From contig NZ_CP020694.1 of the NCBI RefSeq assembly GCF_003611275.1, positions 930,001 through 994,000 on the forward strand: a DNA stretch of 64,000 bases. Direction: 5' to 3'. Position numbers and translations under genes: made by a program. This stretch comes from Sulfitobacter sp. D7. Lineage in GTDB: Bacteria > Pseudomonadota > Alphaproteobacteria > Rhodobacterales > Rhodobacteraceae. The notes below the pieces were generated by a model. That model was not told the DNA's origin and made no database searches. It saw nothing but the letters and a program-made list of their open reading frames with translations. This document shows, in pieces, positions 36,016-64,000 of the stretch (position 1 is its first letter; each line of letters starts with the position of its first letter).

Positions 36016-36125
36016 CCCTTGTTTTCAAGGCTCTATCGGCCCGGTTGTGCGTAATTCAAGCCTCGGCAAAAGTGCGACATCCCTGCCGCTGATTCCCAAA
36101 AATAATATCCGGTCTTGAAAAATTG

Positions 36126-49540: not shown

Positions 49541-49549
49541 GGGCAGGTC

Positions 49550-49852
49550 ATGGAATTCGCATCTCTCCCAATCCCCGCGCCGACCCCGGCAGCGAAGCCT
49601 GCAGTGACACAGGCCGATGCCGTCACCGCCGAAAAAGCGCAGGAGTTCGAGGCGATGTTCCTTGGACAGATGGTCGATGAAATGCTCTCGACTGTGGACA
49701 TCGGCAGCTTTGGCGGCGGCCATGCCGAAGAGACATGGCGCAGCTTTTTGTCCAACGCGATTGGCGAAAGCATCGCCGAGCAGAACAGCACCGGCATCGC
49801 CCGCAGCATTGAAACCGCCATGCAGCGCTATCAAACGGGGGCAGACCGATGA
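49550..49852 (+). CDS. flgJ: Rod-binding protein, FlgJ N-terminal type
   Basis: 100 residues. Only the rod-capping domain is present (Phe-Glu-Ala-Met-Phe-Leu-Gly-Gln-Met-Val near 28-37); the muramidase domain of enteric FlgJ is absent, as is normal in alphaproteobacteria. It would help rod assembly. A separate wall hydrolase would be needed. Follows flgI by nine bases. Confidence 0.85.
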   Translation: MEFASLPIPAPTPAAKPAVTQADAVTAEKAQEFEAMFLGQMVDEMLSTVDIGSFGGGHAEETWRSFLSNAIGESIAEQNSTGIARSIETAMQRYQTGADR

Positions 49853-50226
49853 GCGATCCGCGCAAAGCACTCGCCGCCGTGGATGCATTGGGCAATCTGC
49901 TGCGCCGCGAAATCGCCGCGGTCGAGGGCGGGGCGTTCAATCAACTGGTCGAATTCGCCAGCGAAAAAGCCCGACTCACCGCCGTGTTGGAAGAGCAACT
50001 CAGCCACGACCCCGAAGCGGTCAGCAAAGATAAATTGCGCGATCTAAAAGATCTGATTGCGCGCGATCATCACCACCTGCAATTGGCCCGCCAAGCCACG
50101 GCAGAGATGATCAAAGAAGTTTCCGGAATCCGGGAAAAGCACAGCATTGCAGGCATTTACGGCCGAAGCGGTGCGAAGCGTGACAACCGCGCAACACTGA
50201 TGACAACCGTGGACAAAAGTTTCTGA
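49849..50226 (+). CDS. FlgN-like flagellar chaperone
   Basis: 125 residues, helical, charged (Ala-Ala-Val-Asp-Ala-Leu-Gly-Asn-Leu-Leu-Arg-Arg-Glu near 8-20), with overlapping start and the flgJ stop (four bases). Size and position after the flgK-L-I-J block are those of FlgN, which holds FlgK and FlgL for export. Sequence is divergent. Confidence 0.6.
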   Translation: MSDPRKALAAVDALGNLLRREIAAVEGGAFNQLVEFASEKARLTAVLEEQLSHDPEAVSKDKLRDLKDLIARDHHHLQLARQATAEMIKEVSGIREKHSIAGIYGRSGAKRDNRATLMTTVDKSF

Positions 50227-50244
50227 ATTGCCTCAATGTTGCCA

Positions 50245-50285
50245 GTTTTTCGCGTAAAAACGTAATCAAGCGGGTTCGCCCCGCA
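50245..50285 (+). promoter_or_regulatory. Flagellin leader with two small hairpins
   Basis: GTTTTT-5-AAAAAC (50245-50261) and GCGGG-5-CCCGC (50270-50284) lie about 50-90 bases before fliC. In Caulobacter, FlbT acts on the fliC 5' leader, and flaF/flbT are present just downstream here. These are candidate FlbT-recognition structures, or parts of the promoter. Confidence 0.4.
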
Positions 50286-50333
50286 GTTGTCAGAACGACG
50301 ACATAACGAACTAGAATAGTCTGGAATAAGAAC

Positions 50334-51275
50334 ATGTCTTCGATCAACACAAACACCTCCGCAATGAATGCTCTCGCAACTCTGCGGAACGTCAACTCGA
50401 ACCTTGGGACAACCCAAGACCGTATCTCGACCGGTCTCAAAGTTTCTTCCGGTAAGGACAACGCAGCTTACTTCGCGATTTCCGAAACCATGAAGGGCGA
50501 CAGCGGCATGACCAAAGCCGTGAATGAGAGCCTGACACTGACCAAGAACTCGGTTGCGACCGCGCGTCTTGGCGCAGAGCAGTTCTCCGAGCTTGCATCG
50601 GAATTCCGTGACAAGGTTGCATTCGCCCAAGAGAACAAGGGGGGTCTGACCGAAATCGAAGCCGACCTGACCCGTCTCGTGGCCGACATGGACGCGATCA
50701 TTTCGCAGTCGACCTTTAACGGCGACGACTTGGTCAACGCAGAGGGCACAGCAACGGACGGGACCGCGGCCACCGCGTCAACGATTGATCCCGCAACTGG
50801 TATAATCACGGATGGCACCAGCGGCGCAAAAGCGGCGCGTGAAGTCGTAAGCGGTATCAGCCGTGATTCTGCTGGCAACCTGACCACGACTAAGATCAGC
50901 GTCTCCCCGGTCGACCTGAACGGTCAGCGCGAGCAATTCGCCCTGATCGCGACAGGCTTTGCGACGAACGCGGGCAACGCCACCACAGGTGAAGCTTTCC
51001 TTGCGCAAGTGCTGACGGAGGCCGATGAAGCCAAAACAGCTTCCGTAAGTGCCTCCACAACTCTGGGTCAGGCCGAAAAGTCGATCGAGCGTCAGCAGGA
51101 ATTCCTGACCAAGCTCTCCGACAACCTCGACACTGGCGTTGGCGCGATGGTTGACGCCAACATGGAAGAAGAAGCCGCCCGTCTTCAGGCGCTTCAGGTT
51201 CAGCAGCAGCTGGCATCGCAGTCCCTGTCGATCGCCAACCAGGCGCCGCAGAACATCCTGAGCCTGTTCCGTTAA
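50334..51275 (+). CDS. fliC: Flagellin
   Basis: 313 residues. N-terminal D0/D1 (Ile-Asn-Thr-Asn-Thr-Ser-Ala-Met-Asn-Ala-Leu, Arg-Ile-Ser-Thr-Gly-Leu-Lys-Val) and C-terminal D1/D0 (about 225-313, ending Asn-Ile-Leu-Ser-Leu-Phe-Arg) are complete, and the variable middle is short, as usual in Roseobacters. Major filament subunit, exported through the type III gate. Confidence 0.95.
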   Translation: MSSINTNTSAMNALATLRNVNSNLGTTQDRISTGLKVSSGKDNAAYFAISETMKGDSGMTKAVNESLTLTKNSVATARLGAEQFSELASEFRDKVAFAQENKGGLTEIEADLTRLVADMDAIISQSTFNGDDLVNAEGTATDGTAATASTIDPATGIITDGTSGAKAAREVVSGISRDSAGNLTTTKISVSPVDLNGQREQFALIATGFATNAGNATTGEAFLAQVLTEADEAKTASVSASTTLGQAEKSIERQQEFLTKLSDNLDTGVGAMVDANMEEEAARLQALQVQQQLASQSLSIANQAPQNILSLFR

Positions 51276-59411: not shown

Positions 59412-59793
59412 TATCCTCATCATCGTGCTGCTGGTCGGCACGCTGGTCTATGCCTTTATCCTTGATCGTCGGGTTCGCGCGCTCATGACCACCTTGAAGG
59501 AAATGGAGCCGATGGTTGGGGCCTTTTCCAGCGCGGTTGATCAATCCGCCAAATCGGTCGAAGACCTCCGCGATCTCAGCACCAAGGTGCAGCGCCCCGA
59601 GCCACCCGTGCAGCGCGACACCCCGCAGCCGCGCCAAGCCGCGACTGAGCCTGCCGCCGCAGGCCAAAGCCCCGCACAGATGCGTGCCGCGCGTCTCAAA
59701 GGGCGTTCCCAAGTGCGGGGGCAGGCGGCGGTGCAGGGCAAATCCGAGCTGGTCCGCACCTTTTTCGACATCACCAAGGAGCGTAAGGAATGA
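59392..59793 (+). CDS. DUF6468 flagellar protein
   Basis: 133 residues with one N-terminal membrane helix (about 5-24) and a helical, Pro/Arg-rich tail. Overlaps fliM by 20 bases and the next gene by four. This family is found beside fliM/motE-like genes in alphaproteobacteria. Function not known. Confidence 0.75.
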   Translation: MMPALIDILIIVLLVGTLVYAFILDRRVRALMTTLKEMEPMVGAFSSAVDQSAKSVEDLRDLSTKVQRPEPPVQRDTPQPRQAATEPAAAGQSPAQMRAARLKGRSQVRGQAAVQGKSELVRTFFDITKERKE

Positions 59794-60430: not shown

Positions 60431-61549
60431 TTAATCCTCGCGGATCGACGACCCCGCGGGCGGCTTGCGGCGCACGTTGCGGCGCAGGTCCATGACAAAG
60501 CCGATGATCTCGGCCACCGCCTGCCAATGCTCCATCGGGATACGGTCATCCACCTCTACCGCCGCGTGAAGCGCACGGGCCAGCGGGCGGTTTTCGATCA
60601 TCGGAATGTCGTGCTCTTTGGCCAGTTCGCGGATGCGGTGGGCCATCACATCGGCCCCCTTGGCCACGCAGACCGGCACATCATCGACGCCCTGTTTATA
60701 TTTCAGCGCCACGGCGTAATGGGTCGGGTTGGTCAGGATCACGCTGGCATTGGGGATGGCCTGCGCGATGCGCTGGCGGGCGCGGGCGCGGCGCAATTCG
60801 GCACGGCGGCCCTTGATCTGCGGATCGCCCTCGCTGTCTTTATGCTCGTCGCGGATTTCCTTGAGGCTCATCATCTGTTTCTTTTTCCACTGCGCACGCT
60901 TCCAGATGATGTCGGCAATGGCGATGGGCACCAGCAGCACGGTGGTGACCAGAAAGATCCAGCGCACCTTTTGCAAGGCCGCATCCAGCAATGTCTCGGG
61001 AATGAAGGCCTGTGTCTGACCCAGCGATTGCGCAATATCGCGCACGGCCCAGACGGTGATGAAGCCGATCACCAGCACCTTGGCGGTGTTCTTGGCAAAC
61101 TCGACAAAGGCCTCGGCCGAGAACAGCCGCTTAAAACCCGATAGCGGATTCAGTTTGGAAATTTTCGGCTTGATCCGTTCGGCGGAGACCACGGTCTCCC
61201 CTTGGATCAGCACCCCAAAGAGGGCCGCCAACACCATGATCCCCGCGACCGGCATCATCGCCAGCCCCAGCGTAAACCCCAGTGACTTTAACACATTCCC
61301 GGCCTCAACGACCCCGGTGCCGCCGGTGCCAATGGCGGTGACACCAGCGTCCAGCAGCGGGCCTTGCAGCGCTTCGACGATCCGGCCAATCGAACTTGGC
61401 AGCACGAAGATCAGGATCATCAGCAGGGCAAAGACCAGCATCGCCGTGCCGGTCTCACGCGATTGAGGCACGTCGCCCTTCTTGCGCGCGTCGCGGAGCT
61501 TTTTCTCCGTCGGCTCTTCGGTCTTACTGCTCTTGTCCTCGTCTGACAT
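60431..61549 (-). CDS. flhB: Flagellar export switch protein FlhB
   Basis: 372 residues. Four membrane helices (about 35-215) and the cytoplasmic domain with the autocleavage site Asn-Pro-Thr-His at about 274-277 intact. Cleavage there changes export specificity in response to FliK. Starts four bases after the fliR stop. Confidence 0.94.
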   Translation of the reverse strand: MSDEDKSSKTEEPTEKKLRDARKKGDVPQSRETGTAMLVFALLMILIFVLPSSIGRIVEALQGPLLDAGVTAIGTGGTGVVEAGNVLKSLGFTLGLAMMPVAGIMVLAALFGVLIQGETVVSAERIKPKISKLNPLSGFKRLFSAEAFVEFAKNTAKVLVIGFITVWAVRDIAQSLGQTQAFIPETLLDAALQKVRWIFLVTTVLLVPIAIADIIWKRAQWKKKQMMSLKEIRDEHKDSEGDPQIKGRRAELRRARARQRIAQAIPNASVILTNPTHYAVALKYKQGVDDVPVCVAKGADVMAHRIRELAKEHDIPMIENRPLARALHAAVEVDDRIPMEHWQAVAEIIGFVMDLRRNVRRKPPAGSSIRED

Positions 61550-61552
61550 GGC

Positions 61553-62308
61553 CTAGAATCCGTAGGTGGTGAGCCAATTCGCGAAAGGCTCAAGAAACCC
61601 GCGCATCATGGTCGGAACCGCCAGCACCATCAAGGCCAGCCCCGCGGCAATCAGCAAGGGCTGGGCAATAAAGAAGACCTGAAGGCTCGCCATCATGCGG
61701 TTGGCCAGACCCATCCCGACGTTCAGCACCAGACCCGCCACATAGAAAGGCGCGGCGATCGACAGCCCAAGATACAGGCTGACCTGCGTCGCGCGGGCAA
61801 ACTGATCGGTCAGATCGGCCAACATGAAGGTGCCGGGGATGAAAACCTGATAGGACATCAGCAAGGATTCAATAATCAGGTGGTGCAGGTCAGTGATGAA
61901 AATCAGCGCCGTGGCCCCGATCAGCAGCATCGCCGCCATGGAGGTCGCCCCCTCGAATGCGCCAATGTTTGGTGCCAAGGCATTGGCCAGCCCCGACATC
62001 AACGCCATCTGATAGCCCGCGAATTGCAGCGCCGAGAGCAGCGTGCGCGCCACCAGCCCGATCCACAGCCCCACGGTGATCTCGGACCCGAAGATCAACA
62101 GCAACGCGCCGGGGCGATCCTCGGCCACCGGGCCAAGGCCGGTGACCGGATAAAGCGCGGCACTCAGGATCAGACCAAAGAACAGCCGGTGCCGCGTGGG
62201 CACCGAGGTTTCAGCAAAGCCCGGCATGAACAAAAGCGCGCTGCCGATGCGGGCGAAGACGACGAAATATCCCATCAGCGCGTCGGTCAAAAGGGCGGAC
62301 AGGTCCAT
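61553..62308 (-). CDS. fliR: Flagellar export gate protein FliR
   Basis: 251 residues from ATG 62308; the frame goes on to 62644 but overlaps flhA. Six to eight membrane helices. Val-Phe-Ala-Arg-Ile-Gly-Ser-Ala-Leu-Leu-Phe-Met-Pro-Gly-Phe near the N-terminus is typical. Two bases downstream of the flhA stop. Confidence 0.92.
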   Translation of the reverse strand: MDLSALLTDALMGYFVVFARIGSALLFMPGFAETSVPTRHRLFFGLILSAALYPVTGLGPVAEDRPGALLLIFGSEITVGLWIGLVARTLLSALQFAGYQMALMSGLANALAPNIGAFEGATSMAAMLLIGATALIFITDLHHLIIESLLMSYQVFIPGTFMLADLTDQFARATQVSLYLGLSIAAPFYVAGLVLNVGMGLANRMMASLQVFFIAQPLLIAAGLALMVLAVPTMMRGFLEPFANWLTTYGF

Positions 62309-62310
62309 CC

Positions 62311-63321
62311 CTAGCCCCCGATGGTGGCGACGGTCCGCAGGGATACCTTGCGATGAATTTCGGCGTTGGAAATCACCGGCGTCATCGGGCTGACCCGCTC
62401 CAACATGGAGCGCACATAGGACCGCGCCTCGGGGTTGACCATCAGCGCGGGCCAGCTGTCCTCGGAGGCGAAGCGCTGGATCTGCTGGCGGGCTTGCAGC
62501 ACGAATTCCTGTACCCGTTTGGGGGACATGACGAATGTGCGATCCTCGCCGACGATCTTGACCGCCTCGATGAACTCGGCCTCCCACGAGGGCGACAGGG
62601 TGATGACAGGCACGAAGCCCTGACCATCGGACAGGCCTTGGCAAATCTGGCTCGACAGGCGGCGGCGCACGTTCTCAAGCACCAGCGCGGGTTTGGAGGT
62701 CTGGCGCGTGGCTTCGGCCATCGCCTCCACGATCAGCGGCAGGTTGCGGATCGAGACACGCTCGAGCAGCAGTTCCTGCAACACCTGCTGCACCAGAATG
62801 GCGGGGGAGGGGACGGGCAGGTCGTTGACCAGCTTTTGATAATTCCGGTCCAGCCCCTCAATCGCCTCTTTCGCCGAACCGTAGGTGAGCAGTTCAGACA
62901 TGTTTTCCTTGACCACTTCGGTCAGATGCGTGGTGATCACGCTTTCGGGGTCCACCACCGTATAGCCCTGCGCCTCGGCCTGATCGGCAACCTTGCTGTC
63001 GACCCAAAGCGCGTCCAGCCCAAAGGTGGGTTCGCGCGTGACCTCACCCGGCAGTTGCAGCGGCGCGCCCTCGGGGTTGATCACCATCATCTGATTGGCG
63101 CGAATGTCGCCCTTGGCCACATCAACGCCGTGGATTTGGATGGAATAGCTGTTGATCGGCAGGCTCACGTCATCCTTGATCCGGACCGAGGGCATGGGAA
63201 AGCCGAACTCTTCGGCGAAATGCTTGCGCAGGGATTTGATCTTGCTCGGCAGCACCGCGTCGGGGCGGTTGGCCAGCGCCACCAGCCCTTCGCCCAGAAC
63301 CAGCCGCAACTCGTCGAGGAG
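62311..63321 (-). pseudogene. flhA: flhA, 3' part only, interrupted by an insertion sequence
   Basis: About 336 codons remain of a gene that is normally near 690. The retained part is the cytoplasmic domain of FlhA, starting at Leu-Leu-Asp-Glu-Leu-Arg-Leu-Val-Leu-Gly-Glu-Gly-Leu and ending in Ile-Gly-Gly. The eight-helix membrane half, with the FHIPEP segment, is missing. In frame, a TAG stop occurs at 63322-63324, where the IS256-family element begins. A TTG at 63307-63309 could start a short product but could not form an export gate. The 5' half is presumably past the element to the right. FlhA is the major gate protein of flagellar export, so this is expected to abolish assembly. Confidence 0.88.
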
Positions 63322-64000
63322 CTATGCGGGAATTTGGGTGATGGCGTGATTTGAAGTGCGGCGTATCGTGGCGGGTGTCAAAGCCGGCCAGAACCTCACA
63401 AGGAGCGATACGCCATGAAGGAAGATACAACGATCCTGCCATTTCGCCAATCGGAAACGATCGTCGATCCGCTGACAGAGCTTGCTCGGCAAGGTGCTCG
63501 TCGGATGCTGGCGGAAGCGCTGAAGGCCGAGGCTGATGCCTTTGTCGCCAGTTTTGCCGATGAGCAGTTGGAAGACGGGCGTCAGCGGATTGTGCGGCAT
63601 GGATTTGGCCCTGAACGGAAGATTCAGACGGGGATCGGTGCTCTGGATGTCCAGCGGCCCAAGGTGCGCGACCGGATGGCGTCCTCTGATGGGGCAGAAA
63701 AGATCCGCTTTACCTCGAACATTCTGCCGAAATGGGCGCGCCGCTCGATCAGCTTGGACGCGCTGCTGCCTGTTCTTTATCTGAAGGGCATATCGACGGG
63801 CGATTTCCAGGACGCGCTGTCGGCCATCATGGGGCCGGATGCGCCCAACCTCTCGCCAAGCGTCATCTCGCGTCTGACTGCCGGATGGCAGGTTCAATAT
63901 GATGCCTGGGCACGGCGGGATCTGTCTGCCCGCCACTACGTCTACATTTGGGCGGACGGCGTTTATCTTCAGGCGCGGATGGAGGAAAATGCCGAATGCA
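63322..64000 (+). mobile_element. IS256-family insertion sequence (left part)
   Basis: The element begins at about 63313-63325, judged by the loss of FlhA similarity; the exact terminus cannot be fixed without the right end, which lies outside the window. It carries one transposase gene in the + direction, opposite to flhA. IS256 elements usually make 8-9 bp target duplications; the candidate left copy would be the bases just before the junction. Confidence 0.85.
63415..64000 (+). CDS. IS256-family transposase (3' partial)
   Basis: At least 195 codons, open to the right edge. ATG 63415 has AAGGAG upstream. Glu-Ala-Asp-Ala-Phe-Val and Arg-His-Gly... near residue 65, Val-Gln-Arg-Pro-Lys-Val-Arg-Asp and Leu-Tyr-Leu-Lys-Gly-Ile-Ser-Thr-Gly-Asp-Phe are conserved. 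Tyr-Ile-Trp-Ala-Asp-Gly-Val-Tyr near 180 contains the first catalytic Asp of the DDE triad. The other two acidic residues lie beyond the window. No stop or frameshift is seen, so the element looks recently active. Confidence 0.9.
   Translation, partial: MKEDTTILPFRQSETIVDPLTELARQGARRMLAEALKAEADAFVASFADEQLEDGRQRIVRHGFGPERKIQTGIGALDVQRPKVRDRMASSDGAEKIRFTSNILPKWARRSISLDALLPVLYLKGISTGDFQDALSAIMGPDAPNLSPSVISRLTAGWQVQYDAWARRDLSARHYVYIWADGVYLQARMEENAEC

Follow-up and report, generated by a model that had tools for sequence, protein, structure and literature searches.

Flagellar type III export passes through a gate formed by FlhA, and the knock-out of motility genes by insertion is a familiar type of event. 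In Phaeobacter inhibens DSM 17395, the mutants listed as impaired in motility include five with a transposon in flhA (PMC12363192). In the gammaproteobacterium Pseudoalteromonas lipolytica, deletion of flhA abolishes swimming and causes defects in flagellar assembly, and a spontaneous flhA mutation, a one-base insertion accompanied by wrinkled colonies, has been described from biofilms (PMC8919034). Insertion sequences of the IS256 family move by a copy-out/paste-in route through a circular intermediate (PMC7780238). Within Sulfitobacter, a survey of 36 closed genomes describes flagellar genes on the chromosomes of S. dubius, S. faviae and S. profundi, and IS256-family transposases that recur on plasmids; its main text does not use the term flhA (PMC13386836). 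Two strains of S. faviae carry a single long polar flagellum by electron microscopy, which is silent on the motility of strain D7 (PMC10221251), and for eight Sulfitobacter strains isolated from stone biofilms gene content pointed to likely immobility (PMC11278168). Among the listed titles and abstract openings on Sulfitobacter flhA, on flhA together with IS256 and on wider topics, none reports the insertion described below, and passages of PMC4624242, PMC4229320 and PMC3826837 contain no mention of it.

Here we describe a natural or culture-born insertion in flhA of Sulfitobacter sp. D7. The window, that is, the whole stretch of DNA analysed, comprises 64,000 bases (C1:930001–994000); the genome it comes from has six contigs, 3,963,108 bases in total and an estimated completeness of 100%. 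Sequence comparison of its loci shows the genome to be that of a marine Sulfitobacter. Among named genomes, Sulfitobacter dubius DSM 16472 has the most similar flagellar locus (92.7% identity over 6 kb), and the corresponding locus of a further congener, G026, is 94.1% identical over 4 kb. The case has an insertion in flhA in common with the P. inhibens mutants, which belong to the same order, but those insertions stem from laboratory mutagenesis. With P. lipolytica it shares the spontaneous loss of FlhA, caused there by a single base and here by an insertion sequence; the loss of swimming was observed in that organism, whereas in Sulfitobacter it is predicted.

flhA is split by an IS256-family element

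The original prediction, made from the window, held that flhA is split by an IS256-family element. Extension of the sequence to the right recovered the far end of the element, the matching copy of a 9-bp target duplication and the 5′ part of flhA beyond the window. The 3′ part of flhA (62311–63318, minus strand) encodes residues 360–694, which form the cytoplasmic domain, and has no start codon of its own; it matches PF00771 (280.3 bits, profile positions 331–656) and the FlhA profile TIGR01398 (positions 345–678). The 5′ part (C1:994719–995804, minus strand) begins with an ATG at C1:995804 and lies directly beyond the element end, so that both parts stand in order on one contig, C1. The gene is interrupted after codon 362. 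Together the parts span positions 1–656 of the 657 of the FHIPEP profile (PF00771), whereas scored singly against TIGR01398 they reach 320.5 and 507.1 bits, each below the full-length cut-off of 772.1. When the flanks were joined in a script with a single copy of the nine bases, the result was a single open frame that starts at the ATG and has 694 codons.

The element is 1,400 bp long; on the plus strand it starts at 63319 and ends at C1:994718, which is 718 bases outside the window. It is flanked by identical 9-mers at 63310–63318 (C1:993310–993318) and at C1:994719–994727 (719–727 bases beyond the window end). Its terminal inverted repeats are imperfect: the left one (63319–63343) agrees with the right end at 22 of the 25 outer positions. 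The coordinates given earlier for an in-frame stop at the junction, with a transposase starting 90 bases further on, proved accurate; the stop, a TAG on the minus strand (63322–63324), is supplied by the left terminal repeat of the element, and the transposase gene begins at 63415. That gene, taken in the window to be apparently intact, continues unbroken past the window end as a complete frame of 423 aa (C1:993415–994686, plus strand). Its product matches NF033543 transpos_IS256 (303.7 bits; cut-off 150) and PF00872 Transposase_mut (205.1 bits; cut-off 21) and contains the motifs WADGVY (179), VGDGAMG (244) and NPIES (350), which presumably bear the catalytic D, D and E. By its transposase, its terminal inverted repeats and its target duplications of 8–9 bp, the element belongs to the IS256 family. 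It agrees with other insertion sequences of that family in transposase, imperfect repeats, duplications of 8 or 9 bp and the presence of multiple identical copies, and shows no notable difference from them.

Five identical 1,400-bp copies can mislead an assembly, and the same structure had been recognized at the outset as a potential join between copies of a repeat. A false join, however, would not put the same nine bases on both sides of the element; nor would it leave the two flhA parts in order and in frame, so that joining them yields the sequence of an intact public protein. Proper duplications are present at all five copies. Given the matching nine bases and the two halves standing in order on one contig, we rejected an assembly join as very unlikely. 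Chance is not an issue either, since both ends, both duplications, four more identical copies and the empty sites all agree. The insertion into flhA is confirmed. A backup gene elsewhere was also rejected: a whole-genome search with FHIPEP, in which a second flhA would have overturned the proposal, returned two matches, and both are the flhA halves.

Copies of the element and their empty sites

Five copies of the element are present in the genome, with no mismatch among them over 1,400 bp; contig C1 has two, and C3, C4 and C6 have one apiece. All five are flanked by target duplications, three of which measure 9 bp and two 8 bp. Because the five copies are identical and each carries its duplication, the insertion in flhA is recent.

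Empty sites were found for three of the four copies outside flhA, all of them in annotated plasmids. The copy on C4 (54258–55657), in a stretch 100% like S. faviae plasmids, has its empty site in plasmid NZ_CP116427 of that species (100% over 1,000 joined bases), by whose annotation it interrupts an SMC-family ATPase gene beside an SbcD-like gene. The stretch around the copy on C6 (8305–9704) resembles a Sulfitobacter sp. W002 plasmid at 96.7%; the empty site in W002 plasmid NZ_CP081129 (96.2%) is annotated as an O-antigen polymerase gene within a surface-polysaccharide gene set. For the copy on C3 (15057–16456), the empty site is found in Roseovarius indicus plasmid NZ_CP031599 (91.4%), in a gene annotated as strawberry-notch-like. 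The second chromosomal copy (C1:1234834–1236233) is likewise identical and flanked by a duplication; an ORF near it resembles what we take to be an IS3-type transposase. Four of the five copies, flhA included, thus lie within genes. At the flhA site itself, the element is absent from all 11 congener loci tested, which were drawn from 39 relative loci and represent about eight genomes, three of them being present twice (L014/L046, L015/L044 and L016/L036).

Of 394 genomes in the family, 13, ours among them, contain a match to the element at E 1e-100 or better (two candidates scored per genome). A copy on plasmid pP73C of Celeribacter indicus is 96.4% identical, and in G067, a genome from another genus of the family, positions 71–1400 are matched at 99%. 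The only other full-length relative within Sulfitobacter is found in G003 (two copies at 73%). Two further genomes, G037 and G038, contain short near-identical pieces of the element's end, one of them at a contig edge, so draft genomes may hide copies. A distant chromosomal relative, 65–66% identical, lies at C1:1398763–1399505 of the genome studied here.

An intact allele and flhA across the genus

One public protein, P0001, is identical to the joined FlhA over all 694 residues and was the best match among the top 120 of 8,000 scored. It is encoded on one contig of 7,881 bases, which may stem from our own strain or from another. A second protein, P0002, differs from the joined FlhA at residues 419 and 452 only. 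Isoleucine 419 together with valine 452 is shared with P0001 alone among 64 proteins (one unreadable at 419), and both residues are encoded within the window (62311–63318). P0001 therefore seems to represent this flhA allele in its intact state, and the changes at 419 and 452 are probably older than the insertion, since only P0001 has both.

Such an allele also bears on when the insertion arose. A variant of timing that is compatible with recent transposition has the insertion arise in laboratory culture, the gene being intact in the sea. The identity of the copies, the undecayed state of the other cluster genes and the complete match of P0001 would all fit this; against it, four of the five copies interrupt genes, spread over four replicon contigs, and all of these transpositions would have to be recent, though they could be. 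P0001, which may come from either strain, does not decide the matter. We regard an origin in culture as a minority prospect, with perhaps some chance of being right.

We surveyed 62 Sulfitobacter genomes, our own included, with one genome per species and strains of the same species outside the set. An flhA match was found in 46 of them and none in the other 16; requiring a completeness of 90% or more and a contamination of 5% or less leaves 56 genomes, 43 of them with a match. In one genome (G008:C1:668000–678000, near 672137; L088), flhA is read in two frames with a one-base gap relative to our gene, possibly a sequencing error. A gene split by insertion was seen in our genome alone among the 62 (46 with flhA).

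This distribution bears on the earlier suggestion of phase-like on/off switching, for which the analysis yielded no positive sign. A reversible switch would require the element to leave flhA precisely and at a useful rate, with swimming and non-swimming cells alternating, as IS256 does at ica. Phase variation of ica by IS256 is known in Staphylococcus epidermidis (PMC3784566), the 9-bp repeats at flhA are perfect and suited to precise excision, and the rare residues 419 and 452 also occur in an intact allele. There, too, a gene is interrupted between short direct repeats by an element with a transposase of the same family; reversal has been described for ica, however, whereas for flhA one insertion event is known and the site does not recur among the 62 congeners. 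Because our genome alone has an insertion-split flhA, the position is not a recurrent switch site, and with no such split in the other 61 congeners a dedicated switch was rejected. The element is moreover scattered over four contigs, and no preference for flagellar genes was seen among its five copies. Copy-out/paste-in transposition keeps the donor copy in place (PMC7780238), so that transposition alone does not vacate the site. Taken together, a reversible switch appears highly improbable. The 9-bp repeats allow a return to intact flhA without making such a return frequent. Precise loss of the element between them, which reportedly does not depend on the transposase in the case of IS256 (Hennig and Ziebuhr, 2008, cited in PMC5065196), would restore the full gene, but probably only as a rare event. 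A broader scenario, in which the burst of element copies acts as a genetic change from swimming to sticking, chromosomal flhA and the O-antigen polymerase gene on C6 both being hit in the same cell, interrupted and intact flhA alleles coexisting in one natural population and rare precise excision returning swimmers, also seems to us highly improbable.

Predicted consequences for the export gate

Recent transposition of an IS256-family element into flhA, leaving the cell with no full-length export gate, no flagellum and no swimming, is in our judgement very probably the correct account of this locus. The 1,400-bp element, which has copies on three other contigs, would have entered flhA too recently for the rest of the flagellar locus to have decayed. 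The full-length gate would no longer be made and the axial proteins would stay unexported, giving a cell without a flagellum that does not swim; a non-flagellated cell, as the original prediction envisaged, is the probable phenotype. Transcription of fliR and flhB may drop as well. A polar effect on these two genes is likely, because sltF, flhA, fliR and flhB share a strand and follow one another closely, neighbours either overlapping by 4 bases or standing a few bases apart.

What remains of flhA could in principle still act as two chains. The C-terminal part of the protein aligns with the 692-residue FlhA structure 36hw from residue 362 of that structure onward; from its length of 692 residues, we take 36hw to be Salmonella FlhA. 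The FlhA linker comprises residues 328–361 (PMC8166844), and the insertion point therefore lies at the start of the cytoplasmic domain, directly behind it. Since the element sits at a domain boundary, a membrane part and a cytoplasmic domain made separately and together forming a working gate are conceivable. The upstream piece could encode residues 1–362, but followed by 37 foreign residues derived from the element. For the downstream piece the first candidate start is a TTG at 63307–63309, which has no purine-rich ribosome site at the usual spacing. A scan of the element with the sigma-70 consensus, which covers part of the range of promoter types, found a single site, on the strand opposite to the flhA remainder, and no promoter aimed at that remainder. 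The linker is itself involved in export switching (PMC8166844), and no comparable split occurs in the other genomes of the 62. Nothing suggests that the second chain is made, and we consider a functional split gate extremely unlikely.

With recent transposition as the preferred account, the locus represents a well-resolved first step in the loss of a flagellum: a single insertion has hit a locus that is otherwise intact, and the genus is one in which 16 of the 62 genomes searched lack an flhA match. Tables that merely count flagellar genes could score such a strain as motile. At the flhA site, the frequency with which an IS256-family element departs from its position in a marine bacterium could also be tested cleanly.

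The flagellar gene cluster around flhA

flhA is situated in a flagellar gene cluster, of which 32 other ORFs align over their whole length with those of G026: 28 in the window (36123–62308) and four to its right. Lengths are equal in 27 of the 32 and differ by 1–12 aa in the remaining five, and 31 are 88–100% identical. Of the 28 in-window proteins, 24 could be assigned to a Pfam family, the one at 59790 with a score below the cut-off, and no Pfam match was obtained for those at 36123, 39056, 42794 and 59392. The identified genes include fliR, flhB, fliP, fliF, fliG, fliM, fliN, fliI, flgE, flgK and flagellin, among others. The statement that every other flagellar gene is intact thus holds for the 32 ORFs compared along their whole length, although the 28 in the window are not all established flagellar genes. 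The view of a recent loss in an otherwise undecayed locus is sustained by these 32 alignments and by the identity of the five element copies. The observation made from the window is correct, and its support is now stronger than the window alone could give.

Immediately downstream of flhA, fliR is intact (61553–62308, minus strand; PF01311, 144.9 bits), with 251 aa as in G026 and 99.2% identity. It is followed by an equally intact flhB (60431–61549, minus strand; PF01312, 382 bits), with 372 aa as in G026 and 94.6% identity. The cluster also contains a frame of the MotA/ExbB family (C1:962503), one of four such matches genome-wide, and the sole MotB_plug match of the genome (C1:965122); flgB is present as an open frame.

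Over the whole genome, Flagellin_N scored above its cut-off only in the flagellin gene that begins at 50334. This gene (50334–51275) stands apart from the other 31 ORFs in its identity of 58.9% to G026, which suggests that the filament protein was replaced or has changed fast. Ahead of it, between flgI and flagellin (49541–50333), about 790 bases carry no selected ORF, a distance that exceeds most gaps in the cluster.
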